Of a stretch of 64,000 nucleotides of DNA, positions 27,809 to 60,227 are shown piece by piece. Position numbers and translations under genes: made by a program. Every line of letters starts with the position of its first letter. Within the stretch, counting starts at the first letter, position 1. Where the stretch lies: positions 62,001-126,000 of the forward strand of contig NZ_FMCW01000020.1 in assembly GCF_900091595.1 (NCBI RefSeq). The letters run 5' to 3'. This DNA is from Micromonospora haikouensis. Its GTDB lineage: Bacteria; Actinomycetota; Actinomycetes; Mycobacteriales; Micromonosporaceae. The notes below the pieces were generated by a model, which ran no database searches, was not told the DNA's origin, and saw only the letters and a program-made list of their open reading frames with translations.

Positions 27809-28114
27809 CTACTCGGCGATCCGGGTCCGGCCGGTCCAGCGGAAGACGACCGGCGCCTCGCCGCCGCCGGAGTCCCGCTCGAAGTGCTCGTAGCCCCCGT
27901 AGTGACGTACCTTGATCTTGTGTTCCACCGGGGAGACCCGGTGGCTGCGCAGCTCGGTCGGCAGGTTGGCGGGCCCGCCCTCCAGCACGACGTCGATGAT
28001 GCCGGCGGCCTCGCTGCTGATGGTCATGGCCGGCACCGTCCAGGCGATCCGGTCGTCGTCGTTGACGATGGGGTTCGCCGTCCGGGCGGTGGGGGCGGAT
28101 TCGGAAACTGTCAT
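27809..28114 (-). CDS. small DUF5988-like protein
   Basis: A 101-residue protein. The N-terminal third is polar and unstructured-looking. The rest has IDVVLEGGPANLPTELRSH, IKVRHYGGYEHFER and VFRWTGRTRIAE. This pattern recalls DUF5988, a small family found mostly in Streptomyces and Micromonosporaceae, often near secondary-metabolite genes. No function is known. The ATG at 28114 has GGAGG eight bases upstream. Its promoter carries two tandem copies of a CTA(A/G)GGGG box also found at matB promoters (see 28148-28197), which ties it to the polyketide cluster. Confidence 0.65.
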   Translation of the reverse strand: MTVSESAPTARTANPIVNDDDRIAWTVPAMTISSEAAGIIDVVLEGGPANLPTELRSHRVSPVEHKIKVRHYGGYEHFERDSGGGEAPVVFRWTGRTRIAE

Positions 28115-28147
28115 CGCACGACCTCCGTCGTTCGTCGCTCCGCCACG

Positions 28148-28197
28148 AACGTAATCCAGGTCACACTCGGCGGGCACCCCTTAGCGACCCCCTAGCG
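28148..28197 (-). promoter_or_regulatory. promoter with tandem CTARGGGG boxes upstream of the DUF5988-like gene
   Basis: Reading the minus strand, CGCTAGGGGGT (28197-28187) is followed directly by CGCTAAGGGGT (28186-28176), giving an exact 11-bp, one-helical-turn tandem repeat. From the last G of the second GGGG there are 23 nt to TACGTT (28153-28148), a plausible -10 box. The predicted transcription start is about 27 nt before the ATG at 28114. The same GGGG-N23-TANNNT spacing occurs at 31050-31085 and 35601-35639. Confidence 0.6.
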
Positions 28198-28272: not shown

Positions 28273-29010
28273 TCACTCCCAGCGGAAGAAGCGGGTGGCC
28301 AGGACGCTGCCGGCGACGGCGGTGACGGCCAGGGCGAGCAGCTGCGGCCACGCCGGACTGTCGCCGGCCCACGCCGCCGCGAGGGTGTCCACGGTGGCCC
28401 CGAGCGGCGAGTAGTCGCCGATGCGGGCCAGCACGGTCGGCATCTGGTCGCGCGGCAGCCAGGCGCCGGCGAGGAAGAGCAGCGGGAAGAACAGCGCCGG
28501 CCCGATGGACTGGGCCGCCCGCGCCGACGGGGCGAGCGCGGCGATGAGCAGGCCGACGGCGAAGAGGCAGGCCACGCCGAGCAGGAACGCCAGCACGAAG
28601 GCGGGCACGTTGGCCGGGGCCGGCTGGTCCAGCAGGAACCGTACGCCGATCGCGGTGACCACCGCGCCGGCCACGCCCATCACCAGGTTGACCACCACCT
28701 GCGCCACGAGCAGCAGGGCCGGGTTGACCGGGGTGGTGGCCAGGCGGCGCAGCACCCGCCGCTCCCGGTAGATGCCCAGCGCCATCGGCAGGGTGAACAG
28801 CGCGAGCATGCCGATGGTGAGGGCCAGCGCGAGGGCCGGCAGGAAGGTCAGCTCGCCGTGCTGCCCGGCGTCCGCGCCGGAGGCGCCGCGCTGCGGCAGC
28901 CCGAAGACCAGCATGAGGCCGAGCGGCAGGGCGAAGACGAAGAACAGCGACACCGGCTCGCGCAGGAACAGCTTCGCCTCGACGGCGATCAGCTTGGACA
29001 GGGCGTTCAC
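28273..29010 (-). CDS. ABC-2 type transporter permease
   Basis: A 245-residue permease with six hydrophobic segments. It starts LSKLIAVEAKLFLREPVSLFFVFALPLGLMLVFGL, the usual cytosolic amphipathic helix and first membrane helix of the ABC-2 family. The conserved RERRVLRRLATTPVNPALLLVAQV loop and the late PLLFLAGAWLPRDQMP and YSPLGATVD segments follow. The GTG start at 29010 overlaps the stop of the ATPase gene (GTGA), so the two are translationally coupled. With the upstream ATPase it forms a DrrAB/NodIJ-like exporter, probably for a lipophilic small molecule. It lies at the left side of the polyketide cluster. Confidence 0.88.
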   Translation of the reverse strand: MNALSKLIAVEAKLFLREPVSLFFVFALPLGLMLVFGLPQRGASGADAGQHGELTFLPALALALTIGMLALFTLPMALGIYRERRVLRRLATTPVNPALLLVAQVVVNLVMGVAGAVVTAIGVRFLLDQPAPANVPAFVLAFLLGVACLFAVGLLIAALAPSARAAQSIGPALFFPLLFLAGAWLPRDQMPTVLARIGDYSPLGATVDTLAAAWAGDSPAWPQLLALAVTAVAGSVLATRFFRWE

Positions 29011-29948
29011 GAGGACCTCTCGTCGGTCGACGGCGGGGTGGTGGCCCGGGCGGCGCGGCCGGTCAGCGAGACGAAGGCGTCGTCCAGGGTGGGCTGCTCG
29101 ACGCGCAGGCCGGCGTAGCGGACCTTCTGCTCGGCCAGGGCCGACAGCACCGTCTGCAGGACCTGTTCCGGGCCGGTGACGGTGACCTCGTCGCCGGAGC
29201 GGCGCACCCCGGTCACCTCGGGCAGCGCGGCGAGCAGCGCGTCGTCCACCGGGTCGAGCGGCCGGAAGTGCACCCGGTGCTCGGTGCCGACCCGGGAGAG
29301 CAGGCCGGACGGGGTGTCGATGGCCACGACCCGGCCGGTGTCGATGATGGCCAGCCGGTCGCAGAGCCGCTCGGCCTCCTCCATGAAGTGGGTGACCAGC
29401 ACGACCGTCACCCCCCGGTCGCGGATGCGCTCGACCAGGTCCCAGGTGTCCCGCCGGCCCTGCGGGTCCAGCCCGGTGGTCAGCTCGTCGAGGATCGCGA
29501 TCTCGGGGCGGCCGACCAGGGCGAGGGCCACCGAGAGCCGCTGCTTCTGCCCGCCGGACAGCTTGTGGAAGGCGGTGTCGCGCTGCGTGGCCAGGCCGAG
29601 GTCGTCGAGCAGCTCGTCGATGTCGGCCCGGTTGCGGTAGAAGGACCGGTAGAGGTCCAGCGCCTCGCGCACGCGCAGCTTGTCGGGCAGCTGGCTCTCC
29701 TGCAACTGGGCGCCGACGCGCTGCCGCACCTCGGTGCGGTCGCGGACCGGGTCGAGCCCGAGGACGCGGACGGTGCCCCCGTCGGCGCGGCGCAGCCCCT
29801 GCACGCACTCGACGGTGGTGGTCTTGCCCGCCCCGTTGGGGCCGAGCACGCCGAAGATCTCGCCCTGGTCGACGGTGAAGGAGACGTCGTCGACGGCGAT
29901 CTTGTCGCCGTACCGCTTGTGCAGGTGCTCGACCTCGATGACCGGCAT
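29007..29948 (-). CDS. ABC transporter ATP-binding protein (DrrA-like)
   Basis: A 313-residue ABC ATPase. Walker A is GPNGAGKTTT near residue 40, the Q-loop is AQLQESQLPDKL, the signature is LSGGQKQR near residue 137, and Walker B is IAILDELTTGLD. The switch His is in VLVTHFMEEAERLCDRLAI. The Walker B Glu and LTTGLD D-loop region are intact. The C-terminal extension of about 80 residues is typical of DrrA-type drug-export ATPases. The start is an ATG at 29948 with GGAGGACC upstream. It is coupled to the permease gene by a 4-bp overlap. Confidence 0.92.
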   Translation of the reverse strand: MPVIEVEHLHKRYGDKIAVDDVSFTVDQGEIFGVLGPNGAGKTTTVECVQGLRRADGGTVRVLGLDPVRDRTEVRQRVGAQLQESQLPDKLRVREALDLYRSFYRNRADIDELLDDLGLATQRDTAFHKLSGGQKQRLSVALALVGRPEIAILDELTTGLDPQGRRDTWDLVERIRDRGVTVVLVTHFMEEAERLCDRLAIIDTGRVVAIDTPSGLLSRVGTEHRVHFRPLDPVDDALLAALPEVTGVRRSGDEVTVTGPEQVLQTVLSALAEQKVRYAGLRVEQPTLDDAFVSLTGRAARATTPPSTDERSS

Positions 29949-30229: not shown

Positions 30230-31003
30230 TCACCCGGCGTGTCCGTCCACCCCGGCCGGTCCCCGGCCGGGGGCCGCCGGCCCGTCGCCGCCGGCCACGG
30301 GCCGGTCGCCGGGCGGCGTGGCGCCGGGGGCGGGGCACGGGTCGCAGAGCGGCAGCAGCTCCCCCAGCCCGGTCAGGACGACGTCCGGGCCGGCGGCGAG
30401 CAGGGTCGCCGGGTCGGACTCCCCCCACAGCGCCGCGACCGCGAGGACCCCGGCGGCACGGGCGCTGGCCAGGTCGCTGGGCGCGTCGCCGACCATCAGC
30501 GCGTCGGCGGGCGCGACGTCGAGCAGCTCCAGCGCCCGGCGCACGATGTCCGGGGCCGGCTTCGGGCGGGCCACCTCGTCGGAGCCCACCACGTGGTCGA
30601 CCAGGCGCAGCAGGTCCAGCCGGCCCAGCAGGTCGCGGGCGCGCACCCCGCTGCGGCCGGTCGCCACGGCCAGCCCGATCCCCCGCCCGCGCAGCACGCC
30701 GAGCAGGTCGGCCGCCCCGGGCACCGGCGTGACCAGGTGGGCCAGCCGGTTGCTCTCCCGCACGAAGGGGTCGGCCATGGCCGCCGGGAGGCCCATCAGC
30801 CGCAGCACGTCGGGCAGGTAGCGGCCCGGGTGGCGGCAGTATTCGTCGACGGGTGCGACGCCGCCGCCGACCACCTCGGCGTACGCGAGGGCGAACGCCT
30901 CGCGGGCCACGGCGAGGCTGTCGACCAGCACACCGTCGAGGTCCAGGACGACCGCCCGGACTCCCCCGGGCACCCCGGACCGGCGCACCGCCACACCGGC
31001 CAC
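30230..31003 (-). CDS. HAD-superfamily hydrolase (phosphoglycolate-phosphatase-like)
   Basis: A 257-residue HAD phosphatase. Motif I is VLDLDGVLVDS (nucleophile Asp near residue 21), motif II is AVATGRSG, the motif III Lys is in ARPKPAPD, and motif IV is MVGDAPSD. The alpha-helical cap lies between motifs I and II (EAFALAYAEVVGGG). The C-terminal tail of about 40 Pro/Gly-rich residues is probably disordered. Several in-frame GTG codons exist. The GTG at 31003 is preferred for GGGGAGG eight bases upstream, but the frame is open to 31030. It is divergent from matB. It is not an FkbH-type (glyceryl) HAD protein, so a direct role in polyketide extender supply is not indicated. Confidence 0.85.
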   Translation of the reverse strand: MAGVAVRRSGVPGGVRAVVLDLDGVLVDSLAVAREAFALAYAEVVGGGVAPVDEYCRHPGRYLPDVLRLMGLPAAMADPFVRESNRLAHLVTPVPGAADLLGVLRGRGIGLAVATGRSGVRARDLLGRLDLLRLVDHVVGSDEVARPKPAPDIVRRALELLDVAPADALMVGDAPSDLASARAAGVLAVAALWGESDPATLLAAGPDVVLTGLGELLPLCDPCPAPGATPPGDRPVAGGDGPAAPGRGPAGVDGHAG

Positions 31004-31049
31004 CGGCGTCACCTCCCCGCCCACGCGCACGACACGCCGACGCCGGCCC

Positions 31050-31085: not shown

Positions 31086-31176
31086 CGGGTCGCCGGGACC
31101 CGCCGGGCCGGGTCGACCGCGACGACCCGGCCGGCCGGCGTCCCCGCGAACCCTACCGGTGGAGAGGTGCGTCCAC

Positions 31177-32586
31177 ATGCCGCTGCTGAGCTGGCTGTCC
31201 GAGTCCGCCGACGACCGACCGGACGCGGTCCGGGTCGACGACCGGGCCGTGTCCTGGGTGGAGCTGCGCCGGCTCGCCACGGCGGTCGCCGACGACCTGG
31301 GCGGCGTGGACCGGGTCGCCGTCGAGGCGACGCCCACCCTGGAGACGGTGGTCGGGGTGGTCGGGGCGCTGCTGGCCGGCGCGGCGGTCGTGCCGGTGCC
31401 GCCGGACGCGGGGCCGATGGAGCGGGAGCACATCCTGCGCGACTCCGGCGCGACGGCGCTGCTGGCCCCGGCGGGCGGCACCGCTCCGGCCGGCGACGGG
31501 GGCCCGCCGGTGATCCCGGTCGACCTGGCGCGGCGGTCGGACACCGTCCACCCCGAGCCGGACCCGGCCGCCACCGCGCTGATCCTCTACACCAGCGGCA
31601 CGACCGGGGCGCCGAAGGGCGCGGTGATCGGCCGGGGGGCGGTCGCCGCCTGCCTCGACGGGCTCGCCGACGCCTGGGCGTGGACGCCCGAGGACCTGCT
31701 GGTGCACGGGCTGCCGCTGTTCCACGTGCACGGCCTCGTGCTGGGGGTGCTGGGGCCGCTGCGGCTGGGCAGCCGGCTGCACCACGTGGGCCGGCCGCGC
31801 CCCGAGCGGTACGCGGCGGCCGGCGGCACGGTCTACTTCGGCGTACCCACGGTGTGGTCCCGGATCGCGGCGGACCCGGAGTCGGCGCGGGCGCTGCGCC
31901 CGGCGCGGCTGCTCGTCTCGGGCAGCGCGGCCCTGCCGGCGGCGGTCTTCGCGGACCTGGCCGCCCTCACCGGCCACGAGGTCGTCGAGCGGTACGGGAT
32001 GACGGAGACCCTGATCACGGTGAGCGCGCGGGCGGACGGGCCGCGCCGGCCGGGGACGGTCGGCGTCCCGCTGCCCGGGGTGCGGACCCGGCTGGTCGAC
32101 GAGCACGGCGCGGCGCTGCCCGCCGACGGGGAGGCGATGGGCGAGCTCCAGGTCGCCGGCCCGACCCTCTTCGACGGCTACCTCGGCCGGCCGGACGCCG
32201 ACGCGGCCACCCGCACCCCGGACGGCTGGTTCCGCACCGGCGACGTCGCCACGATCGGCCCGGACGGGTGGCACCGGATCGTCGGCCGCGCCGCCACGGA
32301 TCTGATCAAGAGCGGCGGGTACCGGATCGGGGCCGGCGAGGTGGAGGACGCCCTGCTGGCCCACCCGGGGGTCCGGGAGGCCGCCGTGGTCGGCACCCCG
32401 CACCCGGACCTCGGCCAGCAGGTCACCGCGTACGTGGTGGGCGACGGGGTGGACGGCCCGGAGCTGATCGACTTCGTGGCCCGCCAACTGTCGGCGCACA
32501 AGCGGCCCCGCGAGGTGCGGCTGGTCGAGGCGCTGCCCCGCAACGCCCTCGGCAAGGTCCAGAAGACCAGGCTGGCGGCGGACTGA
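31177..32586 (+). CDS. matB: MatB-type malonyl-CoA synthetase
   Basis: A 469-residue AMP-forming acyl-CoA synthetase closely resembling Streptomyces coelicolor MatB, which makes malonyl-CoA or methylmalonyl-CoA from the free diacid, ATP and CoA. All core motifs are intact: LYTSGTTGAPKGAVIGRGA (P-loop), LVHGLPLFHVHGLVLGVLGPL, VERYGMTETLI, GWFRTGDVATI, IVGRAATDLIKSGGYRIGAGEVE and the catalytic Lys in NALGKVQKTRL. The ATG at 31177 has GGAGAGG nine bases upstream. A likely role is to supply extender units to the PKS in this window. It lies next to the PPTase gene, and a degenerate paralogue lies at 34068-35471. Confidence 0.92.
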   Translation: MPLLSWLSESADDRPDAVRVDDRAVSWVELRRLATAVADDLGGVDRVAVEATPTLETVVGVVGALLAGAAVVPVPPDAGPMEREHILRDSGATALLAPAGGTAPAGDGGPPVIPVDLARRSDTVHPEPDPAATALILYTSGTTGAPKGAVIGRGAVAACLDGLADAWAWTPEDLLVHGLPLFHVHGLVLGVLGPLRLGSRLHHVGRPRPERYAAAGGTVYFGVPTVWSRIAADPESARALRPARLLVSGSAALPAAVFADLAALTGHEVVERYGMTETLITVSARADGPRRPGTVGVPLPGVRTRLVDEHGAALPADGEAMGELQVAGPTLFDGYLGRPDADAATRTPDGWFRTGDVATIGPDGWHRIVGRAATDLIKSGGYRIGAGEVEDALLAHPGVREAAVVGTPHPDLGQQVTAYVVGDGVDGPELIDFVARQLSAHKRPREVRLVEALPRNALGKVQKTRLAAD

Positions 32587-32648
32587 GCCGGGGCCGAGCC
32601 GAGCGTGGACGCCGGGCCGCGCCGGGGGTGGACGCCGGGCCGCCCCGG

Positions 32649-33311
32649 TCAGCCGGTGACCGCCGGGATGCCGATGGCGGTGAGCACCAGGCCCCGCTCG
32701 ACCAGGAACCGGCCGCGGAAGGCGGTCACCGGGGCGCCGCCGAGGACCGGGCCGGGCACCAGCAGGTGCGCGACGAACGTCCCGCCGGCGTCGACGACGA
32801 TGTCCGCCTCGGCGAAGTCCAGCCACCGGCCGGTCAGCGGGAACCACGCCTTGTAGACCGACTCCTTGGCGCTGAACAGCAGGCGGTCCCAGCAGACCGT
32901 GGGGTGGGCGGCGGCCAGCGCGGCGGTGCGGGTCCGCTCGGCCGGCAGCGCGATCGCGTCGAGCACCCCCTCGGGCAGCGGCGCGTGCGGCTCGGCGTCG
33001 ACGCCGAGGGTGGCCAGCGCGGTGGCGCGGCCGAGGGCGGCCGCCCGGTAGCCCTCGCAGTGCGTCATGCTGCCGACCACCCCGGCGGGCCAGACGGGGG
33101 CGCCGCGCGCGCCAGAAACGATCGGCGTCTCGGCGATGCCCAGCTCGCGGAGCGCGCGGCGGGCGCAGTGCCGCACGGTGGTGAACTCCCGGCGGCGTTT
33201 GTCGACGGCGTTGGCGACGAGCCGTTCCTCCTCGGGGAACAGGGTCAGGCCGGCGGGGTCGGTGAACGCTTCGGCCACCACCGCGGCCGCAGGGAGGATC
33301 TGCTCGATCAC
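32649..33311 (-). CDS. 4'-phosphopantetheinyl transferase (EntD/Sfp type)
   Basis: A 220-residue PPTase that would convert apo-ACP domains to the holo form. Family motifs are RHCARRALRELGI, GSMTHCEGYRAAALG, the Mg-binding GVDAEPHAPLP (Asp/Glu near residues 113-115) and FSAKESVYKAWFPLTGRWLDF (WxxKEA-like Glu/Lys near residues 155-160). It ends with AIGIPAVTG. The GTG at 33311 is only 8 nt from the end of a TAGCAT -10-like element, so the mRNA is probably leaderless. It is convergent with matB, separated by 62 bp. It is the obvious candidate to activate the PKS ACPs encoded nearby. Confidence 0.9.
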   Translation of the reverse strand: MIEQILPAAAVVAEAFTDPAGLTLFPEEERLVANAVDKRRREFTTVRHCARRALRELGIAETPIVSGARGAPVWPAGVVGSMTHCEGYRAAALGRATALATLGVDAEPHAPLPEGVLDAIALPAERTRTAALAAAHPTVCWDRLLFSAKESVYKAWFPLTGRWLDFAEADIVVDAGGTFVAHLLVPGPVLGGAPVTAFRGRFLVERGLVLTAIGIPAVTG

Positions 33312-33319
33312 AGCCGCCG

Positions 33320-33325
33320 ATGCTA
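33320..33325 (-). promoter_or_regulatory. -10 element of a leaderless PPTase transcript
   Basis: On the minus strand TAGCAT occupies 33325-33320 and ends eight bases before the GTG start codon at 33311. Transcription would start at or next to that GTG, and no Shine-Dalgarno sequence is seen. Leaderless mRNAs are common in actinobacteria. Confidence 0.45.
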
Positions 33326-33485
33326 GGCCGCCCCGGCGACCCGCGCCGTCCCTCGATCGGGCGCGACGCGCCGATAGGGGTGGGTACGGGTGGAGGGCGG
33401 CGGGGGCGGATGTCACCCTGAGGGGTGCCCCGGCCTGGTCGGTCGGGGGTGTGTAGTGGTCTTGGTCTGAGGAATGCGGGTGGCG

Positions 33486-33938
33486 ATGCTGACTGGCAGG
33501 GTGGTCCGGTTCGACGAGGTGCGGGGTTACGGCTTCATCGCTCCGGACGGCGGCGGGGACGACGTGTTCGTGCACGCCAACACGGTCGACGGCGACAAGT
33601 GGGCGCTGGGTCCGGGCGTCCCGGTGGAGTACGAGGCGGTGGAGAACGAGCGCGGCCCGAAGGCGCTGACCGTACGCGTGCTCGGGCCCGCCGTGGCGGG
33701 CGAGCGCACCGCCCCGGTCCGGACGGTCGCACCGTCGACGGGGCGCGGCCACGAGTCGGGCCAGGGCGGGCTCGAGGACGAGGAGGGGCTCTGTGACGTG
33801 CTGTCCGAGCGGTCCTTCGTCACCGAGACCACCGAGGCGCTGCTGATCTCCGTGCCGGACCTGACCGGGGCGCAGATCGTGGCGGTGCGCGCCCGGATGC
33901 TGGCGCTGGCGCGGCGGCACGGCTGGGTGGAGGGCTGA
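33486..33938 (+). CDS. cold-shock-domain protein with C-terminal extension
   Basis: A 150-residue protein. Residues 1-65 form a cold-shock (CspA-like) nucleic-acid-binding domain: TGRVVRFDEVRGYGFIAPD contains the RNP1-like GYGFI, and DDVFVHANTV the RNP2-like VFVH. After a polar linker comes a second conserved-looking block, LSERSFVTETTEALLISVPDLTGAQIVAVRARMLALARRHGWVEG, absent from ordinary 67-residue Csp proteins. The ATG at 33486 begins directly at the domain. The in-frame ATG at 33474 is too close to GAGGA to use it. It lies between the PPTase and the matB paralogue, within the polyketide cluster. Its role there is unknown. Confidence 0.82.
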   Translation: MLTGRVVRFDEVRGYGFIAPDGGGDDVFVHANTVDGDKWALGPGVPVEYEAVENERGPKALTVRVLGPAVAGERTAPVRTVAPSTGRGHESGQGGLEDEEGLCDVLSERSFVTETTEALLISVPDLTGAQIVAVRARMLALARRHGWVEG

Positions 33939-34067
33939 GGCTGCCGCCTCCCCCGCTGCGCGTGGGGTCGAGCGGCCGGTGCGGCCCCGTCGCGCGGCGG
34001 GTTCGGCACGGTCGGCCGGTGCGGCGGGTGCTGCTCGGCGACGCCGACCCGGTCGACCGGTTCGCGG

Positions 34068-35471
34068 TCAGCCGGCCGCGATGAGCAGCGACTTCCTGAT
34101 CCGGCCCTGCGCGCTGCGGGGCAGTTCGTCGACGAAGTGCACCCGGCGGGGCCGCTGGCCGGCCGACAGGTGGCGGCCCACGTGGTCGATGAGCACCTGG
34201 GCGGTGAGCCCCTCGGCGGCGACGACGTACGCGGTGACCTGCTCGCCCTGCCCGGCGTGCGGGGTGCCGACCACGGCGGCGTCGCGGACCCCGGGATAGC
34301 TGAGGAGCACCTCCTCGACCTGCCCGGCGTGGACCCGGCGGGTGCGGCCGTGCACCACGTCGGTCCGTCGCCGCCCGATGATCCGGTGCGAGCCGTCGGC
34401 CGCCACGGTGGCGAGGTCGCCGGTGGCGTGCCAGCCGGCGGCATCGGCGCACCGCCCGCGCCCGTCGACGTAGCCGCTGGACAGCGTGGGGCCCCGGATG
34501 CTCAGCTCCCCGACGGACTCGCCGTCGGCCGGCACCGGCCGGTCGTCGCGGTCGAGGATCCGGGTCTGCACGCCGGGCAGGGGCGTCCCGGCGGTGCCGG
34601 CGGCGCAGGGCGCGTCGACCCGCCCGGTCACCGCGATCAGGGTCTCGGTGGTGCCGTAACCCTGGATGAGGGAGTGCGAGGTGAGCAGGCGGAGCCGTTC
34701 GGTCACGGCGGGGGCCAGCGGGGCGTCGGCGGAGACCAGGATCCGGGCCCCGGACAGCGACCGGGCCCAGGGGTGGTCCCGCGAGATGCGCGCCCACTGG
34801 CCGGGGACGGCCAGGTACATGGTGCCGACCGGACCGGCGGCCGCGTCCCGGTCGAGGTGGACGAAGCGGCTGCCCGTGCGCAGCGCGCCGAGCAGGCCCA
34901 CCACCAGGCCGTACGCCCGGAACAGCGGGGCGCCCTGGACGAGGACGTCCTCGCCGTTCCACCGCCACGCGTCGGCCAGCAGGTCCAGGTCGGCGGCGAT
35001 GGCCCGGCGGGAGACGCGGACGCCCCTCGGTGGCCCGCTCGCGCCGCCGGTGTAGAGGATCACCGCGTCGGCGTCGGGGTGCGGCTCGGGTTGGTGGGCC
35101 GAGGAGCGTCGGCTCAGGTCGACGGGGACGGTGGCCAGCCCGGCGGCGACGGCCCGGTCGGGGGCGTCGGAGGGGTCGCGGCCGAGGAGCACGGTCGCGC
35201 CGGACTCCCGCAGGATGCGGCCGCGCTCCCGCGCGTCGGCCCGGGGCGGCAGGGGCACCAGCGGCACGCCGGCCTGGACGGCCCCGACCATGGCGACGAC
35301 GGTCTCCAGGCTGGGGGTGGCGTCGACGGCGACCGCGGCGGCGCCCCGGATCCGGTCGGCGACCGCGTTCACGCAGCCGAGCAGGGCTTCGCTGGAGAGC
35401 GTCCGCCCGGCCACCCGGACGGCGTCGGGGCGGTCCGCGCCGGAGGCGCGTAACGCCGGCAGCAGTGTCAT
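34068..35471 (-). CDS. degenerate MatB-like acyl-CoA synthetase paralogue
   Basis: A 467-residue relative of MatB, colinear over its full length with the synthetase at 31177-32586, but with several catalytic motifs altered. The P-loop reads LYTGGASGPPRGVRVSR instead of YTSGTTGxPKGA, losing the conserved Ser/Thr residues and Lys. LFHVHGL has become LFRAYGL. The IKSGGYRIGAGE hinge is replaced by VVHGRTRRVHAGQ. The A10 catalytic Lys position reads AQGRIRKSLL instead of GKVQK. YGTTETLI and TGDLATV are retained. The frame is open and the codon use normal, so it is maintained. It may be inactive, regulatory, or adapted to another substrate. The ATG at 35471 has a TTAGGGCGG before it. Confidence 0.85.
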   Translation of the reverse strand: MTLLPALRASGADRPDAVRVAGRTLSSEALLGCVNAVADRIRGAAAVAVDATPSLETVVAMVGAVQAGVPLVPLPPRADARERGRILRESGATVLLGRDPSDAPDRAVAAGLATVPVDLSRRSSAHQPEPHPDADAVILYTGGASGPPRGVRVSRRAIAADLDLLADAWRWNGEDVLVQGAPLFRAYGLVVGLLGALRTGSRFVHLDRDAAAGPVGTMYLAVPGQWARISRDHPWARSLSGARILVSADAPLAPAVTERLRLLTSHSLIQGYGTTETLIAVTGRVDAPCAAGTAGTPLPGVQTRILDRDDRPVPADGESVGELSIRGPTLSSGYVDGRGRCADAAGWHATGDLATVAADGSHRIIGRRRTDVVHGRTRRVHAGQVEEVLLSYPGVRDAAVVGTPHAGQGEQVTAYVVAAEGLTAQVLIDHVGRHLSAGQRPRRVHFVDELPRSAQGRIRKSLLIAAG

Positions 35472-35600
35472 CCGCCCTAACCTCTGTCGAGGGCGCCGAC
35501 GAGGCTCGGCAGGGGCAGGGACATCGCGGCCACAGAACCCTTCGCGTCATGGGTGCGGTAGCCCCATATCCGGCCATCCCCGCGTGCTGCGGGTGCCCCG

Positions 35601-35639
35601 AAATTAGGCGGCGCTATCGCCGGGCACAACCCCTAGCCG
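35601..35639 (-). promoter_or_regulatory. matB-paralogue promoter with CTAGGGG box and TAATTT -10
   Basis: On the minus strand CGGCTAGGGG occupies 35639-35630, followed after exactly 23 nt by TAATTT at 35606-35601. The box continues TTGTGCCCG, like TGCCCG at the DUF5988 promoter and TGGCCCG at the matB promoter. The predicted leader to the ATG at 35471 is about 125 nt. Confidence 0.55.
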
Positions 35640-36968: not shown

Positions 36969-39809
36969 ATGGAGCTGAGCGAACGGTCCCACCAGCTCGA
37001 CCTCCTGGCCCGCCGGCTCGGCGACCTGGGCAGCCCCGCCGGTCCGCCCGCCGACGCCCGACCGGTGATCGCGCTGACCGGCCCCGTCGGCTCCGGCAAG
37101 ACCACCCTGTTGCAGGCCTTCGCCCGGCGGGCCGCCGACGCCGACGCCCGCTTCCTCGGGTCGAGCGCCTCCCGGGCCGAACGCGCCGTCCCGCTGGAGG
37201 TCGTCCGCCAACTCGTCCGGGCGGCTCCGCCGGACGACGCCCGCGCCCGCCTCGAACGGCTGCTCGACCAGGGCGCCCTCACCTGGCCCGACCTCGACGA
37301 CGACCAGGAGGGGGCGGCCCGGACCATCGCGGCGATCGGCGGCGCCCTGCTGGAGCTGGCCGCCCGGGGTCCCCTGGTGATCGGGGTCGACGACGTCCAC
37401 CACGCCGACGTGCCGTCGCTGCGCTGCCTGGACTACGTGGCCCGGCGCATCCCCGGCCTGCCCGTGCTGATCGTGCTGACCGAGGCGCCCCGCACCCGGC
37501 CGTGGCACCCCGAGGTCTACGCCGAGCTGCTGCAACCCGCCCGGCTGCACCGGATCCGGATCCCCCTGCTCACCCCGGACGGGACCTACCAGGCCCTGGC
37601 CGACCGGCTCGGCGTGCCGACGGCGCGGAGCGTCGCCGAGGAGGTGCACCGGATCAGCGGCGGAAACCCCCTGCTGGTGCAGGCGCTCGCCGACGACCAC
37701 CTGACCGCCGCGCCGCGCGGCGCGGCCCGCCCGGAGGCGGGCGAGGCGTTCCGGGAGGCCGTGCTGAGCTGCCTCTACCGGTGCGAGCACCTGGTGCTCA
37801 AGGCCGCCCGGGCGCTCGCGGTGACCGGCGAACCGCTGCACGGCGCCCTGCTGCCGCAGCTCGTCGACGTACGCGCGGAGTCCGCCCTGCTCGCGATCGA
37901 CGCCTCCACCAGCGCCGGCCTGATCATCGAGGGCGGGCTGCGGCACGCCGCCGTCGGCCGGGCCGTGCTCGACGGGACCACCGCCGAGGAACGCGCCCGG
38001 CTGCACCGGCTCGCCGCCTGCCTGCTGCACGAGGACGGCGCGTCGCCGGTCCTGGTCGCCGGGCACCTGCTGCGCACCGACGAGCTGGCCGAGCCGTGGA
38101 TGGCCCGGACCCTGCTCGACGCCGGTGAGCAGGCGCTGCTGGACGGCGAGGTGGACGCGGCCCTGCGGTTCCTGCGCCGCGCCAACCGGGACTGCGCCGA
38201 CGAGTGCCTGCGGGCGCGCGCCCGCTCCGCCCTCGCCCGCGCCGAGTGGCGCCTCGACCCGCAGGCCGCGATGCCCCACCTCCAGGGGGTGGCCAGCGCC
38301 GTCCGGGCCGGGCACCTGGGCAGCACGCAGGCCGCCGGGCCGATCCAGTACCTGCTCTGGCACGGCCAGATCGACAAGGCCGTCGAGCTGGTCCAGCACC
38401 TGGGCGAGCGCGCCGACAGCAGCGACCCGCGCTCCGCCGCCGAACTGCTGGTCACCAAGGGCTGGATGGCCACCCTCTATCCCGGGGTGACGATCGACCA
38501 CACGGCCCCCGCCGCGGCCCGGCGGGACCCGCTGACCGTCGCGAAGGTGAAGCAGCGGCTCCAGGGCGTGACCATGCTGGCCTCCGTGCTGGAGCGGGGC
38601 GACGGCGGTGCCGTCGAGGAGGCCGACCGGGTGCTGTCCACCATCGGGCTGGACGACGAGCGGGACATGTGGACCGCCATCTGCGCCCTGATCACCATGA
38701 TCTACGCCGACCGGCTGGACCTCGCCGGCGACTGGTGCGGCCGGCTGGGCCGCAGCGCCACCGTCAGCCGGCATCCCACCCCGGCGGCGATGCTGACCGC
38801 CCTCGACGCCGCGATCGCCGGCCGGCGCGGCGACCTGCCCCGGGCGCAGAAGCTGGCCGACACCGCGCTGACCCAGCTCTCCCCGAAGGGCTGGGGCGTG
38901 GTGATCGGCATACCGCTGGCCATCCGGCTGCGGGCCCTGACGTTCCTGGGCGAACTCGACGCGGCGGCGGCCTGCCTCCAGGTTCCCGTGCCCCAGGTGC
39001 TCTTCGAGACCCCGTTCGGGCTGCACTACCTGCACGCCCGGGGGCTGCACGCACTGGCCGCCGGCAGCCCGGAGAGCGCCCTGGCCGACTTCCAGCTCTG
39101 CGGGCAGCTGATGACGGCCTGGCGGCTGGACCTGCCGGCGCTCATCCCGTGGCGCACCGAGTCGGCCCGGGCCCTGCTGCAGATCGGCCGTCGGCAGCAG
39201 GCCGAGAAGCTGGTCCGGGAGGAGCTGGGCCGGCTGCGGCCCGGCCACGTGCGGTACCGGGCCGCCGCGCTGCGGGTGCTGGCGGCGGCGCAGGACGGGC
39301 CGGACCCGATCCCGCACCTGCGCGGCTCCGTGCGGCTGCTGCGCCAGTGCGGCGACCGGATGGAGCTCGCGCACAGCCTCACCGACCTGGGCCACGCCTA
39401 TCAGCAGGCGGGCGACCTGCGGCAGGCCCGCAAGGCGGCGCGGGCCGCCCGGACGCTGGCCCAGGAGTGCGGCCTGCCGCTGCTGCGGCCGGCCGCCGGC
39501 ACCGCCCGGGGCGGACCGGTCAGCGCCGACCCCGACGTGACGGTGCTGGTGGAGGGGCTCAGCGACACCGAGTCGCGGGTGGCCACCCTGGCCGCGCAGG
39601 GCCACACCAACCGGGAGATCGCCGAGAAGCTGTTCCTGACGGTCAGCGCGATCGAGCAGCGGCTGACGCGCATCTACCGCAAGCTCGACGTCGACTCGCG
39701 CCGGCAGTTGGCCGTGCGGCTGCGGTTGGACCGGCCCGGCGCGCTGCCGGCTGAACGCCTGGGCGCGCCCCGCACGCCCCCCGGCCGCGACGACGACGCC
39801 CGGCGCTGA
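36969..39809 (+). CDS. LAL-type LuxR-family transcriptional activator 1
   Basis: A 946-residue large ATP-binding regulator of the LuxR family. The N-terminal AAA-like ATPase has Walker A ALTGPVGSGKTTLL (about residues 35-48) and Walker B GPLVIGVDDVHHAD (about 137-150). A long helical/TPR-like middle region follows. The C-terminal LuxR HTH is at about 860-915 (GLSDTESRVATLAAQGHTNREIAEKLFLTVSAIEQRLTRIYRKLDV). Such regulators activate polyketide and other secondary-metabolite clusters. The ATG at 36969 follows CGAGG. The HTH recognition helix has SAIEQRLTRIYRK, the same class as the second LAL gene 506 bp downstream. The two proteins share domain order and length, so they look like an old duplication. 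Confidence 0.92.
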   Translation: MELSERSHQLDLLARRLGDLGSPAGPPADARPVIALTGPVGSGKTTLLQAFARRAADADARFLGSSASRAERAVPLEVVRQLVRAAPPDDARARLERLLDQGALTWPDLDDDQEGAARTIAAIGGALLELAARGPLVIGVDDVHHADVPSLRCLDYVARRIPGLPVLIVLTEAPRTRPWHPEVYAELLQPARLHRIRIPLLTPDGTYQALADRLGVPTARSVAEEVHRISGGNPLLVQALADDHLTAAPRGAARPEAGEAFREAVLSCLYRCEHLVLKAARALAVTGEPLHGALLPQLVDVRAESALLAIDASTSAGLIIEGGLRHAAVGRAVLDGTTAEERARLHRLAACLLHEDGASPVLVAGHLLRTDELAEPWMARTLLDAGEQALLDGEVDAALRFLRRANRDCADECLRARARSALARAEWRLDPQAAMPHLQGVASAVRAGHLGSTQAAGPIQYLLWHGQIDKAVELVQHLGERADSSDPRSAAELLVTKGWMATLYPGVTIDHTAPAAARRDPLTVAKVKQRLQGVTMLASVLERGDGGAVEEADRVLSTIGLDDERDMWTAICALITMIYADRLDLAGDWCGRLGRSATVSRHPTPAAMLTALDAAIAGRRGDLPRAQKLADTALTQLSPKGWGVVIGIPLAIRLRALTFLGELDAAAACLQVPVPQVLFETPFGLHYLHARGLHALAAGSPESALADFQLCGQLMTAWRLDLPALIPWRTESARALLQIGRRQQAEKLVREELGRLRPGHVRYRAAALRVLAAAQDGPDPIPHLRGSVRLLRQCGDRMELAHSLTDLGHAYQQAGDLRQARKAARAARTLAQECGLPLLRPAAGTARGGPVSADPDVTVLVEGLSDTESRVATLAAQGHTNREIAEKLFLTVSAIEQRLTRIYRKLDVDSRRQLAVRLRLDRPGALPAERLGAPRTPPGRDDDARR

Positions 39810-40315
39810 CCCCCGCCGCATTGACCGTCCCACCGACCACCCGGGACACCCGAACGCCGACGTCCGACCGCCGGACGTTCCGCCGTCGTGCTCTGGTGGA
39901 GGTGCGCCGGGATCCGAGCGTGTGACACCATCACCCCGCTGCGTCGACACCCGCCGTACGTCCCGTCGACACGTGCCGCCGCCCGGCCGTCGCCGACCCC
40001 CCTTACGGCGTCGCTGGCAACCCCTAACGGCCACCCGGATCCGCAGGTTTGCGCGCGAAACGATGGGGTCTCGCGCCCGTTGTCGCACACCCGACCCGGT
40101 GCCAAACTCGCCTGGACATCCGGATCGCTCGCTGGGGAGCGCGGTCCGGTCAGGGGACAGTTCAGGTCCACCCGGCATGGCGGCCCGGTGCGCTCCACCC
40201 CTACCCGGTGCGACGGGTGGGTGTGGTGGAGGGGCGGCTGTCCGGCTTGGGGGGGCGGTGTCGGTCAGCGCCGGTGTTCCCGGCCCGGCACCGCGTACGA
40301 GAAGGGCTGACACGA
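39810..40315. promoter_or_regulatory. intergenic region between the two LAL genes with two CCCCTWACGG boxes
   Basis: This 506-bp region holds CCCCTTACGG at 39999-40008 and CCCCTAACGG at 40021-40030, in the same orientation and exactly 22 bp (two helical turns) apart. They are the complement of the (C)TTAGGGG-type boxes at the cluster promoters. No TANNNT is found 23 nt beyond either box, so they may be operator rather than promoter sites. A third weaker match, CCCCTACCCGG, lies near 40198. No gene is seen. Confidence 0.45.
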
Positions 40316-43162
40316 GTGGTGCTGGTGCAGCGGGAGGAACAACTGGACCGGCTCCGGGGGGCGTTCGACGCCTGCGCGGAGCACCAACGCGGACACGTCG
40401 CGCTCGTGACGGGCGCGGTGGGCAGCGGCAAGACGAGTCTGTTGGAGACGTTCAGCGAGTGGGCCGCAGCCGCCGGGGGGCGGGTGCTCGGCGCGGCCGG
40501 GTCGCGGGCGGAACGCGGGCTCCACCTCGGAGTCCTGGGGCAGCTGTTCCACAGTGCAAGGCTGGAGCAGCAGGCGGCGACCCGGATCGAGAACCTGATG
40601 CGGGACGCCGCCTTCGCCGTGCCCCTGCCGGAGCCCGGTGGGGACGCGGCCGACGGGACGGCCGCCGGCGACCGGGTCTGGGCGCCCCTGCTGCACGGCC
40701 TGTTCACGGCCCTGCTCGACCTCGCCGACGCCGGGCCGCTGGTCCTCGCCGTCGACGACGTGCACCACGCCGACCCGGCGTCGCTGCACTGCCTGCTCTA
40801 CGTCACCCGGCGGCTGCGGCACGCCCGGATCATGGTGGTGCTCGCCGAGGCGTCGACGCTGCGCCCGCCCCACCCGCTGTTCCGCGCCGAGCTGCTCAGC
40901 CAGCCGTACTTCTCGCGGATCAACCTGCCGCCGTTGACCGTCGACGGGATCGCCCGGCTGGTCGACGCCGACGGCGGGGCCGCCGCCGCCCGGGAGACGG
41001 CCGAACGCTGCCTCAGCATGACCGGCGGCAACCCGCTGCTCACCCGCGCCCTCATCGACGAGCGGGCCCCCGGCGGGGCGGCCGACGAGCGGGGGGCCGA
41101 CCCGACCGGCGGCGACCCGTTCGACCAGGCCGTCCTCGGCTGCCTCTACCGGCACGAGCCCGGGGTACGGCGCGTCGCGCAGGCCCTCGCCGTGCTGAAC
41201 CGCCCCGTCCCGGCCGAGCTGCTCGGCCACGTCCTCGACGTGGTGCCCGAGTCGGCCGCCCCGGCGGTGCGGGTGCTGCGCACCTCCGGGCTGATGGACT
41301 CCGACCAGCTGCGCCACCCCCGCATCCTGCGGTCCATCCTGACCGACATGTCCCCCGAGGAGCGCCGCGGCCTGCACCAGCGGGTCGCCGAGGTGCTGCA
41401 CGAACACGGCGCGGAGCCGGGCGCGGTGGCCGAGCACCTGGTCGCCGCCGCGTGGGCGGACGCCCCCTGGGTGGTGCCCGTACTCTCCGACGCCGCCGCG
41501 CAGGCCCTGGCGTCGGGCCGGCCCGACGTGGCGGCGGCGTGCCTGCGCCTGGTCGCCCGCGCCGACGTCGACGAGCGCCAGCGCACCGCCGCCACCGCGA
41601 TGCTGGTCAACGCCCGCTGGCAGGTCAACCCGCTCGCCGTCAACGGGCACCTGACCGAGCTGGTGGAGACCGCGCGGGCCACCGGCTGGTCCACCGGGGC
41701 CGCCCTGTCCACCGTGCCGTTCCTGCTCTGGCAGGGGCGGGCGGAGGAGGCCACCGAGGCCGTCAGCGGCTTCTCCGGAGACGACGACCCCGGCTCCGCC
41801 GCCGGCCACGCCGGCCGGCTGCGGGCCATGCAGCTGCTGGTCTCCCTCTCGCACCCCGACCAGCTGGCCTCCGTGCGGGAGACGCCCAGCACGTGGAGCC
41901 GGGCGGCGACCGCGCCGACGTCGATCAGCCCCCAGTTGCAGGCGGTCACGGTGCTCGGCACGGCGCTGCTGCCGAACGCCGACAACGACACCGTGGCCAC
42001 CGCCGAGCAGCTGCTGCAACGGCACCACACCGACGACGGGGCGTTGGGGCTGCTCACCGCCCCGCTGCTCGCGCTGCTCTGGTCGGGCCGCTGCGACCGG
42101 GTCGTGGCCTGGGCCGAGATCCTGCTCAACCGGCCGGCGGTCCGGCACGCCCCGGTGTGGCGGGCCGTCGTGCGGGCGGTCCGCGCCGAGGCCGCGCTGC
42201 GGCTGGGCGACCTGCCGGGCGCGGAGCACCACGCCCGCGCGGCGCTGGAGGACATCCCCGCCCCGGCGTGGGGGGTGGCCATCGCCGGGCCGCTGGCCAC
42301 GCTGATCGCCTGCGCGACCGAGGCGGGCCGGTTCGCCGAGGCCGACCGGTGGCTGGCCCATCCCGTCCCGGCCGGCATGTTCCGCACCCCGCTGGGCGTG
42401 CACTACCTGGCCGCCCGGGGCCGGCACCACCTGGCCATGGGCCGGCCGCACGCGGCGACCGCCGACCTGCGCCGCTGCGGGGAGCTGATGCGCGGCTGGG
42501 GCATCGACGTGGCCGGGCTGGTGCCGTGGCGGCTGGAGCTGGCCCGGGTGCAGCTCAGCGTCGGCAACAAGACCCACGCCACCCAGCTCCTGCAGGAGCA
42601 GCTGCGCGTCGCGCACGGGGTCGACGACCGGACCCGGGGGCGTTCGCTGCGGCTGCTCGCCACCACCGCCGCCCCGGACCACCGGCGCAAGCTGCTCGGC
42701 GAGGCGGTCAACCTGCTCCAGGGCTGCGGCGACCGGCTGGAGCTGGTGCGGGCCCTCGGCGACACCGGCCAGAGCCTGCAGCGGGCCGGCGACTCGGCGC
42801 GCGCCCGGTTGCTGGTGCGCCGGGCCTACCAGCTGGCCCAGGACTGCGGGGCGTCGGTGCTGGCCCAGCGGCTGATCCGGCGCGACGCGGGCGGCGGGCT
42901 GCCGGCGTACCCGGCCGGGGCCGAGGCGCACGAGCCGGACGACGGGCTCAGCGAGGCCGAGCGCCGAGTCGCCGCGCTGGCCGCCCAGGGGCACACCAAC
43001 CGGCAGATCTCCAGCAAGCTATTCATCACCGTCAGCACCGTGGAGCAGCACCTCACCCGGGTCTACCGGAAGCTGGACGTCAAGCGGCGCACCGACCTGC
43101 CGGCCCGGCTCGTCGCCTACGCGGAGCCGCTGGCCGAGGAGCCGCAGGGCGCGGCGTCCTGA
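40316..43162 (+). CDS. LAL-type LuxR-family transcriptional activator 2
   Basis: A 948-residue protein of the same design as the preceding gene. Walker A is VTGAVGSGKTSLL (about residues 32-44) and Walker B is GPLVLAVDDVHHADPASLHCLLYVTRRL (about 137-164). A helical middle region is followed by a C-terminal LuxR HTH in GLSEAERRVAALAAQGHTNRQISSKLFITVSTVEQHLTRVYRKLDV (about 873-920). GTG at 40316 was chosen: GAAGGG lies nine bases upstream and the ATPase domain begins right after it. It is followed by a strong terminator. It is a likely pathway-specific activator of the polyketide cluster, possibly acting with or under the first LAL protein. Confidence 0.92.
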   Translation: MVLVQREEQLDRLRGAFDACAEHQRGHVALVTGAVGSGKTSLLETFSEWAAAAGGRVLGAAGSRAERGLHLGVLGQLFHSARLEQQAATRIENLMRDAAFAVPLPEPGGDAADGTAAGDRVWAPLLHGLFTALLDLADAGPLVLAVDDVHHADPASLHCLLYVTRRLRHARIMVVLAEASTLRPPHPLFRAELLSQPYFSRINLPPLTVDGIARLVDADGGAAAARETAERCLSMTGGNPLLTRALIDERAPGGAADERGADPTGGDPFDQAVLGCLYRHEPGVRRVAQALAVLNRPVPAELLGHVLDVVPESAAPAVRVLRTSGLMDSDQLRHPRILRSILTDMSPEERRGLHQRVAEVLHEHGAEPGAVAEHLVAAAWADAPWVVPVLSDAAAQALASGRPDVAAACLRLVARADVDERQRTAATAMLVNARWQVNPLAVNGHLTELVETARATGWSTGAALSTVPFLLWQGRAEEATEAVSGFSGDDDPGSAAGHAGRLRAMQLLVSLSHPDQLASVRETPSTWSRAATAPTSISPQLQAVTVLGTALLPNADNDTVATAEQLLQRHHTDDGALGLLTAPLLALLWSGRCDRVVAWAEILLNRPAVRHAPVWRAVVRAVRAEAALRLGDLPGAEHHARAALEDIPAPAWGVAIAGPLATLIACATEAGRFAEADRWLAHPVPAGMFRTPLGVHYLAARGRHHLAMGRPHAATADLRRCGELMRGWGIDVAGLVPWRLELARVQLSVGNKTHATQLLQEQLRVAHGVDDRTRGRSLRLLATTAAPDHRRKLLGEAVNLLQGCGDRLELVRALGDTGQSLQRAGDSARARLLVRRAYQLAQDCGASVLAQRLIRRDAGGGLPAYPAGAEAHEPDDGLSEAERRVAALAAQGHTNRQISSKLFITVSTVEQHLTRVYRKLDVKRRTDLPARLVAYAEPLAEEPQGAAS

Positions 43163-43231: not shown

Positions 43232-44659
43232 TCAGCCGGCGACGGGCGCGACGGCGCGACGGGCCGCCACCGCCTCGTCGCGGTGGCCCAGCACCAGGTC
43301 GGCGGCGGCGGTGACCCCGCCGGCCTGGCGCAGCCGCCGGCTCCACAGCGCCGCCCGGTCCCGGAAGGTCCGCTCGGTCAGCAGCCGGCGCAGCTTCGCC
43401 ACGATGTCGTCGACGTCGAGGGCGTCGTCGTGCTCGACGGCCAGGGCGACGCCCGCGTCGACGACCCGGACCGCGCCGTCGTGGCAGTCGAACCAGAACG
43501 GCAGCACGAGTTGCGGCACGCCGAACCAGGCCGCCTCGTGGATCGCGTTGGCGGCGGCGTGGTTGAAGAAGACCCGCACGTGCGGGTGGGCCAGCACCTC
43601 CACCTGCGACGGCAGCCACGACTCGACGCGCAGGTTCGCCGGCAGCTCGCCGGCCGGCGGCAGGTGCCGCTGCCGGTCGGCGGGGAGCTTCCACAGCACG
43701 TGGTGGTCGGGGCCGAGCCGGGCGGCGACGTCGACGAGCGCGGCCACCTGGGCGGCGCTCGGGCGCATGATGGTGCCGAACCCGACGTAGACCACCGACT
43801 CGTGGGCGTCGAGCCAGGCGCGCAGCTCCGCGCCGTCGGGGCTCGGCACGATCTCGGTGGGCACCATCGAGCCGACCGTGCGCAGCGTCGCCGGCGCGGT
43901 GGCGAAGGGATATTCCAACCCGAAGACCGTGTACGCCAGCAGCGCCCGCGCCGCCTGCGCGTACAGCGAGGGCCGCAGCTCCACGTTGGGGATCCCGGCC
44001 GCCCTGCGGCGCTGGGCGGCGGCGGTGTTGCGGGCCAGCCGCTGCGGCTCCATCAGGGTCTTCAGCAGCGCCTCGCGGTGGCGGCCGTTGGCGGCCTGCT
44101 GGCTCGGGCTCATGTGCAGCGGCAGCCCCGACAGCGGCATCGGGTACGTCGGCGGCAGGCTGTCCTGGAGGAAGTTCGACGGCGGCACCGACACGCTGAT
44201 CACGAACGGCACGCCCCGGACCGTCATCGCGTCCATCCCGAACGAGGCGAACGAGTCGACCACGGCCAGCGCCGGGGCCACCTCGTCGACCAGGGCCAGG
44301 CAGCGCTCGTACAGCTCGTGCAGGTAGTCGTAGTCGACGGAGGTGTCGACGTACGTCGCGAAGTTCTCGACCCGGCTGCCGGCGGACATCCGCCGGTGGG
44401 TCTCGTCGTCCCAGTGCTCGGGGCGCACCGCCAGGCGGGCCGGCCCGAGCGACAGGAAGGTCAGCTCCCCGCCGCCGGGCAGGCCCTCGACGTCGGCCCG
44501 CCGCTCGTCGGTGCAGGCGAAGAACACCCGGCGCGTCCCCCGGCGCCTCAGCTCGCCGGCCAGGGTGAGCAGCGGGTTGAACAGCCCGGAGCTGCCCGAG
44601 GTGACGATCAGCAGCGGGCTCTCGTCGGCCGTCGTCGCGCCGGCCGCCTGAGTCGTCAT
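43232..44659 (-). CDS. GT1-family (UGT/macrolide-type) glycosyltransferase
   Basis: A 475-residue GT-B glycosyltransferase of the UGT/MGT type. The N-terminal acceptor domain begins LLIVTSGSSGLFNPLLTLAGELRRRG. The C-terminal donor domain has VVYVGFGTIMRPSAAQVAALVDV, VLWKLPADRQ, NLRVESWLPSQVEVLAHPHVRVFFNH and the terminal PFWFDCHDGAVRVVDAGVALAV. In place of the usual HGGxNS after the donor-binding His it reads HAAANAIHEAAWFGVPQLVLP, so the HGG glycines are replaced. The ATG at 44659 follows the permease stop by 13 bp, placing it in an operon with an ABC exporter. Roles could be glycosylation of the polyketide or self-protective inactivation coupled to export. The sugar donor is unknown. Confidence 0.86.
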   Translation of the reverse strand: MTTQAAGATTADESPLLIVTSGSSGLFNPLLTLAGELRRRGTRRVFFACTDERRADVEGLPGGGELTFLSLGPARLAVRPEHWDDETHRRMSAGSRVENFATYVDTSVDYDYLHELYERCLALVDEVAPALAVVDSFASFGMDAMTVRGVPFVISVSVPPSNFLQDSLPPTYPMPLSGLPLHMSPSQQAANGRHREALLKTLMEPQRLARNTAAAQRRRAAGIPNVELRPSLYAQAARALLAYTVFGLEYPFATAPATLRTVGSMVPTEIVPSPDGAELRAWLDAHESVVYVGFGTIMRPSAAQVAALVDVAARLGPDHHVLWKLPADRQRHLPPAGELPANLRVESWLPSQVEVLAHPHVRVFFNHAAANAIHEAAWFGVPQLVLPFWFDCHDGAVRVVDAGVALAVEHDDALDVDDIVAKLRRLLTERTFRDRAALWSRRLRQAGGVTAAADLVLGHRDEAVAARRAVAPVAG

Positions 44660-44672
44660 CGCGCCGGCCGCC

Positions 44673-50608: not shown

Positions 50609-50633
50609 TCGGGGCTCCTTGGGGCGGGCCGGG

Positions 50634-60182
<9,549 letters not shown>

Positions 60183-60227
60183 CGGGGTGCCGCTTCCTCG
60201 CAAGGGACGGGGGTGAGCCGGGGCGGG

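Follow-up and report, generated by a model that had tools for sequence, protein, structure and literature searches.

An apparently old paralogue of MatB, encoded in the 64,000 nucleotides of Micromonospora haikouensis DNA analyzed here (the window), seems to have become a dedicated, probably non-catalytic part of a quinolidomicin-type polyketide pathway. Since the protein, which we call PAR, has lost catalytic residues and fixed new ones, has kept its AMP side, is under purifying selection and is tied to one pathway, a pseudoenzyme component is the best reading and the one toward which we lean. Such a protein would be too poor a catalyst to be of use in ATP-dependent malonyl adenylation and CoA ligation. 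Its function would rest on binding, and its ligand, should it have one, probably resembles AMP or an acyl-adenylate. The likeliest form of PAR may be that of an accessory partner or sensor which tunes the MatB extender supply of a synthase that has over 30 modules.

The PAR gene and its locus

The following features were found in the locus.

27809..28177, minus strand: DUF5988 protein at the cluster edge (Pfam DUF5988)
28273..29010, minus strand: ABC-2 transporter permease (Pfam ABC2_membrane)
29007..29948, minus strand: DrrA-like ABC transporter ATPase (Pfam, NCBIfam)
30230..31030, minus strand: HAD phosphatase of the AHBA-synthesis-associated type (NCBIfam TIGR01454, 281.7 bits, cut-off 246.65)
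31177..32586, plus strand: intact MatB with canonical catalytic motifs (NCBIfam PRK07787)
32649..33326, minus strand: 4'-phosphopantetheinyl transferase, start provisional (Pfam 4PPT_N, ACPS)
33474..33938, plus strand: cold-shock domain protein (Pfam CSD)
34068..35471, minus strand: PAR, a MatB-like ANL protein of 467 amino acids with rewritten catalytic motifs (Pfam, NCBIfam, AlphaFold2)
36969..39809, plus strand: LAL1, a large LuxR-type regulator divergent from PAR (Pfam AAA_16, GerE)
40049..43162, plus strand: LAL2, a large LuxR-type regulator (Pfam AAA_16, GerE)
43232..44728, minus strand: macrolide-type glycosyltransferase (Pfam UDPGT, EryCIII-like_C)
45503..46540, minus strand: second DrrA-like ABC ATPase (Pfam, NCBIfam)
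46625..63953, minus strand: 3' end of a giant modular polyketide synthase, last module with thioesterase (Pfam KS, AT, KR, ACP, thioesterase)

The PAR frame opens at an ATG and is full length, and its product is 51% identical to the intact MatB of the same cluster, whose open reading frame begins at GTG 31159 and for which ATG 31177 was adopted as the start. The GC contents of the three codon positions were nearly equal in PAR (0.80/0.57/0.97) and MatB (0.81/0.55/0.99). The initial annotation had described a full-length, colinear MatB paralogue with an intact frame and preserved codon use, and these results, together with the two ANL domains of PAR, agree with it. The phosphopantetheinyl transferase and cold-shock genes are also enclosed by MatB and PAR, as the annotation had said.

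Pfam analysis of PAR returned AMP-binding and AMP-binding_C and nothing beyond these two ANL domains. The best NCBIfam model for PAR was PRK07787 (NF005858), on which it scored 487.9 bits, under the curated cut-off of 575; the cluster MatB scored 742.1 bits on the same model and exceeded the cut-off. The AlphaFold2 model of PAR had a pLDDT of 88.1 and a pTM of 0.88. Its best structural match was S. coelicolor MatB (3nyq; Z 47.4, 363 residues), which is also the closest solved structure by sequence, and comparison with ATP-bound R. palustris MatB and its chimeras gave Z 44 over 463 residues. Both the Pfam domains and the predicted model place PAR in the ANL fold of the MatB family. Structure prediction and alignment with S. 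coelicolor MatB, which had been proposed as a check, pointed to a retained fold with altered motifs.

The PAR proteins formed one clade (100/100) in the phylogenetic tree, with 40 MatBs all across the branch, and a smaller tree (13 PAR, 16 MatB and 8 other proteins) reproduced the split. The PAR stem was long, at about 0.6-0.85 changes per site, with an unsure depth of the split since the root was placed by midpoint. A recent tandem duplication of the neighboring MatB was rejected because of the 100/100 clade on its long stem, and the trees suggest that the PAR duplication is old.

The claim that MatB and PAR share promoter architecture was not borne out. A search of 30900-37100 gave no sigma-70-like site, and the alignment of the 146 bases before MatB with the 300 bases before PAR was no better than those of shuffled sequences (60 of 500 reached the score). 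The direct repeat families, all of them examined, and the 25 longest inverted pairs (of 99) contained no repeat joining the two upstream regions. The comparison covered sigma-70 sites, repeats and plain similarity, and shared regulation of another kind may exist.

Twenty-five other cluster regions had a common order of ABC permease, ABC ATPase, HAD phosphatase (in some), MatB, cold-shock gene (in some), PAR, LAL1 and LAL2. The HAD gene was not seen in the cluster regions of five genomes (G026, G169, G135, G123 and G134). The cold-shock gene was matched in 15 of 26 clusters and not seen in the other 11, and it looks optional. Of the 25 other regions, 24 had a match to the DUF5988 gene, and the glycosyltransferase was matched only where the cluster stretch extended to it.

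The contig of the window ends inside the synthase. In the closest relative (G006), 32 AT domains were found within 183 kb, all on the minus strand and with some other genes between, and the first synthase began with an AMP-binding domain. The G006 cluster also contained a DegT aminotransferase, a type II dehydroquinate dehydratase and a transketolase pair. Quinolidomicin is a 60-membered macrolide, and its cluster is larger than 200 kb with 34 modules (PMC9054317). When G006 and the window were combined, the more than 30 modules, the CoA-ligase-type loading domain and the terminal thioesterase of a quinolidomicin cluster were all present. An orthologue of that cluster is reported for M. okii TP-A0468 and for 34 of 74 Micromonospora strains (PMC8698034), and the M. 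okii TP-A0468 locus is included in the present data (L105 in G108). From the M. okii identity and the published cluster descriptions, we infer that the locus belongs to an orthologue of the quinolidomicin (qnm) cluster and forms one of its ends. The annotated qnm reference is BGC0002520 (PMC11965639). The likeness consists of the strain identity, the giant synthase with thioesterase, the CoA-ligase-type loading domain and aminobenzoate-type starter genes (PMC8698034, PMC9967187, PMC9054317). The passages of these papers that describe the synthase mention neither PAR nor MatB.

Rewritten catalytic motifs of PAR

We aligned 26 PAR proteins with 40 MatBs (25 from the same clusters and 15 others). 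From MatB to PAR, the P-loop changed from YTSGTTGxPKG to YTGGASGPPRG, the A4 motif from LFHVHG to LFRAYG (His-Val-His to Arg-Ala-Tyr), the carboxylate-site segment from SGSAxL to SADAPL (Ser to Asp), the A5 segment from YGMTET to YGTTET and the A10 motif from GKVQK to GRIRK. A further motif changed from DLIKSGGYRIGAG to DVVHGRTRRVHAG. The A3 and A10 Lys were both Arg in PAR, and the A8 gate loop was scrambled.

Both Lys-to-Arg changes were present in 26 of 26 PAR orthologues and in none of the 40 MatBs, all of which had the A10 Lys. As a control, we used 54 other ANL loci, which had been fetched for other purposes and include several further MatBs. Lys was found at both places in 48 of them and Arg at either place in 0; of the remaining loci, 5 were unaligned at one or both places and 1 had His at A3. 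Since the changes are fixed in every PAR orthologue and absent from the MatBs and the control loci, they exceed what is expected by chance. The earlier observation that the P-loop, hinge and A10 regions of PAR are unlike those of MatB was therefore confirmed and extended to the whole set of orthologues.

The alignment had 17 columns with one residue fixed in all PAR proteins and another in at least 95% of the MatBs. Nine of these were in or near the P-loop, A4, the acyl pocket, A5 and A10 (S142G, K149R, H185R, V186A, F220L, S249D, M274T, K457R and Q459R). Another 23 columns that were invariant in MatB had no residue above 60% in PAR, with 3 of them in the A8 loop. At the MatB-invariant columns, PAR retained the MatB residue in 2 of 17 in A8, 5 of 10 in A3, 5 of 8 in A4, 6 of 8 in A5, 4 of 5 in A7, 3 of 8 in A10 and 52 of 126 outside the motifs. 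In all, 166 of the 457 compared PAR columns were invariant. YGxTETL, TGD and the T-x-G-x-x-G frame of the P-loop were invariant across the PAR orthologues. In the PAR P-loop, the first Thr and three Gly were kept, the Ser was Gly, the Thr-Thr pair was variable and the Lys was Arg.

In MatB, the A4 Val and the A5 Met are specificity positions, and the SGGY loop of A8 gates CoA. Arg236 and Ser261 of S. coelicolor MatB are presumably the carboxylate-binding residues. At these positions in PAR, the Ser was Asp in 26 of 26 orthologues and the Arg (R236) was kept in 20 of 26; the T232 place was occupied by at least six different residues. The ribose Arg of A8 was missing in 3 of 26 orthologues, being Pro in G169, G135 and G123. 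PAR thus departs from MatB in the A10 Lys, the P-loop TSGTTGxPKG, the carboxylate residues, the A8 loop and the PRK07787 cut-off. As judged from the alignment, the fold is kept and the adenosine/AMP side (YGxTE, TGD and the P-loop Thr and Gly) is invariant. The parts that handle the triphosphate (the P-loop Thr-Thr, the A4 His, the A10 Lys and its +2 residue) are mostly lost or refixed, and the CoA-gating A8 loop is largely unconstrained.

The expected effect of these changes was read from mutants of characterized enzymes. In R. palustris MatB, the A10 mutation K488A blocked adenylation, and ATP was still bound at 6 μM (PMC5479551). When further mutations were made in the K488A background, the Kd for ATP rose from 8.8 μM to 156 μM (T166A), 149 μM (T167A), 224 μM (H207A), 52 μM (T208A), 50 μM (M302A) and 66 μM (Q490A), in a single-titration screen of mutants that were mostly to Ala (PMC5479551). 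R299A tightened ATP binding, with a Kd of 2.4 μM, and AMP binding by T303A was too weak for measurement (PMC5479551). By sequence alignment with the solved structures, the window PAR differs at the equivalents of T166, T167, H207, T208, M302 and Q490, as well as of K488 and R299, and keeps the equivalent of T303, the alpha-phosphate/AMP contact. Three of the 26 PAR orthologues retain Thr at the T166 equivalent, and at the T208 position Val is found in the MatB of Micromonospora as well. The Arg, Thr or Gly of PAR may, by analogy with these Ala mutants, have comparable effects.

A second set of mutants comes from an enzyme that we take to be 4-chlorobenzoate ligase. In the published table (PMC8388817), mutation of the A4 His caused a 500-fold loss, mutation of the Pro before the A3 Lys left no activity, mutation of T161 or G163 caused losses of 1000-fold or more, and mutation of the A3 Lys had only a 4-fold effect. 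The A10 Lys is given as the key catalytic residue (PMC8388817). PAR has Arg at that A4 His and, in 13 of 26 orthologues, Ser at that Pro, and it keeps T161 and G163. Mapped onto both sets of mutants, the PAR changes would probably impair the triphosphate and CoA halves of the cycle and spare the adenosine/AMP part.

Several points speak against a non-catalytic PAR. T161 and G163 are kept, the effect of the A3 Lys is only 4-fold (PMC8388817), the T166 equivalent is Thr in those 3 orthologues, Val at the T208 equivalent is shared with Micromonospora MatB, and the loss of R299 tightened ATP binding in R. palustris MatB (PMC5479551). The dN/dS of PAR, given below, also counts on this side, being higher than that of the other genes with several pairs. 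A change from Lys to Arg also retains the charge, and with both Arg invariant, a working but altered enzyme would fit as well.

Distribution, selection and loss of PAR

A search for orthologues with the same altered motifs, suggested in the initial annotation, gave an open PAR orthologue in 26 of 160 Micromonospora genomes (72-100% identity), all with both Lys-to-Arg changes. The copies in M. rubida, M. okii, M. halophytica and strain MW-13 were about 81% identical. Of the 160 genomes, 27 had a LAL1 orthologue, and these were also the ones with the second ABC ATPase. PAR was present in 26 of these 27 cluster-bearing genomes, and an intact copy was present in 0 of the 133 others, among which no PAR match was above 54% identity, the level of MatB. 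The 27th genome (G023) is a 990-contig assembly in which the LAL1 contig starts 581 bases before LAL1 and the PAR site is off the contig; MatB was likewise not found in this genome.

The family-wide search placed PAR in 27 of 354 genomes (E up to 1e-127). In a genome of another genus (G362), a PAR orthologue with both Lys-to-Arg changes was found in a related cluster with no adjacent MatB. This related synthase cluster (L135) has a different regulator order, and the first 43 residues of its PAR match in another frame, either by a frameshift near residue 43-53 or by sequencing error. G008 has kept the cluster and PAR (C1:3024352, L093), and its in-cluster MatB is missing; another MatB is about 620 kb away (C1:3645052, L075). 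G008 and G362 each have a MatB elsewhere in the genome. Regulation of MatB by PAR is possible, as the initial annotation had suggested. That PAR is a partner of MatB specifically is rather doubtful, since PAR occurs without an in-cluster MatB in G008 and without an adjacent MatB in G362. MatB-like second loci outside the cluster were also seen in G068 (C75:95498) and G019 (C1:4043732).

All 26 PAR orthologues in the cluster-bearing Micromonospora genomes are open frames. The median dN/dS (YN00) was 0.081 for PAR and 0.040 for MatB on 48 usable of 300 pairs, a result that leans on close pairs, as 249 of the 300 were unusable for both genes and 3 were outside dS 0.02-2. The dN of PAR was about 2.2 times that of MatB. 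On 18 close pairs, dN/dS was 0.085 for PAR, 0.078 for LAL1 and 0.069 for LAL2. The values for the neighbors were 0.052 for the HAD gene (14 pairs), 0.081 for the cold-shock gene (12 pairs) and 0.024-0.033 for the transporter genes. Usable close pairs numbered 18 for PAR, MatB, LAL1 and LAL2, 16 for the permease, 15 for the first ATPase, 14 of 14 for the HAD gene, 12 of 14 for the cold-shock gene and 1 for the glycosyltransferase. Among the genes for which more than a single pair was available, PAR had the highest dN/dS, yet it was far from neutral.

Where the A8 Arg was lost as well (G169, G135 and G123), the dN/dS of PAR was 0.046-0.065, which suggests that selection maintains PAR even where the ligase motifs have eroded further. 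PAR therefore combines the loss of catalytic residues with purifying selection, as is expected of a pseudoenzyme. Decay of PAR in the cluster-bearing strains was rejected in view of the open frames and the dN/dS near 0.08. These results support the proposal of the initial annotation that activity was lost or changed after an old duplication and that the intact frame argues against simple decay.

Decay in close relatives, which the annotation had counted as evidence against its reading, was found in part. Broken pieces of PAR, either truncated or frame-broken, were present in three genomes (G131, G109 and G092), and neither LAL1 nor the second ABC ATPase was found in any of them. PAR remnants had been sought in the MatB region of 14 of the 61 MatB-only genomes, with these 3 positive. 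The broken PAR adjoins an intact MatB in L069 (G131, Micromonospora sp. ATCC 39149), L070 (G109) and L066 (G092), and in G131 a partial HAD gene and ABC permease also lie beside the intact MatB. The broken pieces look like scars of cluster loss, and PAR seems to decay once the polyketide cluster is gone. Since all three broken copies sit in cluster-less genomes, a pathway role is favored over general decay.

Alternative readings and related systems

PAR might instead be an active, re-specialized adenylating enzyme, which we consider possible but rather unlikely. Its pocket of Arg185, Ala186, Leu220, Asp249 and Thr274 would take another acid, the two Arg would stand in for the two Lys, and a carrier protein or a small acceptor, not CoA, would receive the acyl group. 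An intact AMP site, the smaller residues at the specificity positions (Val to Ala and Met to Thr) and a lost CoA gate, which alone would suit a non-CoA acceptor, are consistent with this. The altered pocket residues are also fixed in 26 of 26 orthologues, but they were picked for being fixed, so that their fixation is no test. The key catalytic role of the A10 Lys (PMC8388817) and the block of R. palustris MatB by K488A (PMC5479551) argue against an active enzyme, as do the variation at other pocket positions (the T232 place and R236) and the loss of the A8 ribose Arg in 3 of 26 orthologues. Activation of the starter by PAR is unlikely, since G006 has an AMP-binding loading domain on its first synthase for that purpose.

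It is improbable that PAR is functionless and drifting, with its presence due to linkage to the cluster only. The broken copies in G131, G109 and G092 and the raised dN relative to MatB could be explained in this way, and the possible frameshift in G362 is the one hint of frameshifts in cluster-bearing strains, which would favor it. However, every copy in the cluster-bearing Micromonospora genomes is open with dN/dS near 0.08, the three broken copies sit where the cluster markers are gone, and PAR has outlasted the loss of the neighboring MatB in G008. We give equally little credence to PAR as an acyl-adenylate/AMP sensor for the regulators, independent of MatB, which would bind a ligand and report precursor status. 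The kept AMP-site residues, the lost triphosphate contacts and the divergent PAR-LAL1 order in the 25 other cluster regions could fit a sensor of this kind, but Pfam gives just the two ANL domains, and a conserved order says little in a cluster that is syntenic throughout.

The known systems closest to a pseudoenzyme component of the pathway resemble PAR in part. PAR shares with MatB of S. coelicolor (3nyq) and R. palustris (4fuq/4fut) the colinear, full-length ANL fold and the adenosine-side motifs, and is 41% identical to the S. coelicolor enzyme over the 363 structurally aligned residues. It differs in the Lys-to-Arg changes of A3 and A10, the carboxylate Ser-to-Asp change, the Arg-Ala-Tyr of A4 and the largely unconstrained A8 gate. 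The FLD2 domain of opisthokont DIP2 is likewise an ANL domain with degenerate motifs that is retained beside an active ANL unit (PMC9342972). Unlike PAR, which keeps A5 and A7 and changes A3, A8 and A10, it belongs to fused tandem FAAL-type domains of eukaryotes and is degenerate in A5 and A7 (PMC9342972). The prozymes of trypanosome AdoMetDC and deoxyhypusine synthase are impaired paralogues kept with an active counterpart (PMC5201418, PMC3663545). They have other folds, and activation of the partner has been shown for them, whereas it is conjectured for PAR (PMC5201418, PMC3663545). Among the papers listed by our literature searches, none was on the PAR gene or on a MatB pseudoenzyme.

Family models would probably name PAR an acyl-CoA synthetase, and its sequence suggests that it is very likely not one in the usual sense. 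If PAR is a pseudoenzyme, a giant polyketide pathway would include a conserved component that does no catalysis, and this component would give access to the question of how cells supply more than 30 extender units for each molecule. If PAR is active, the two Arg in place of the classic ANL lysines would revise the adenylation requirements of the superfamily.

Two minor observations concern LAL1. In one cluster (L094 in G021), LAL1 is split into two open reading frame pieces with 603 and 296 residues matched, where a frameshift or an assembly error is possible. In addition, 11 of the 27 LAL1 matches run through one TGA, which is probably the end of a shorter C-terminus.
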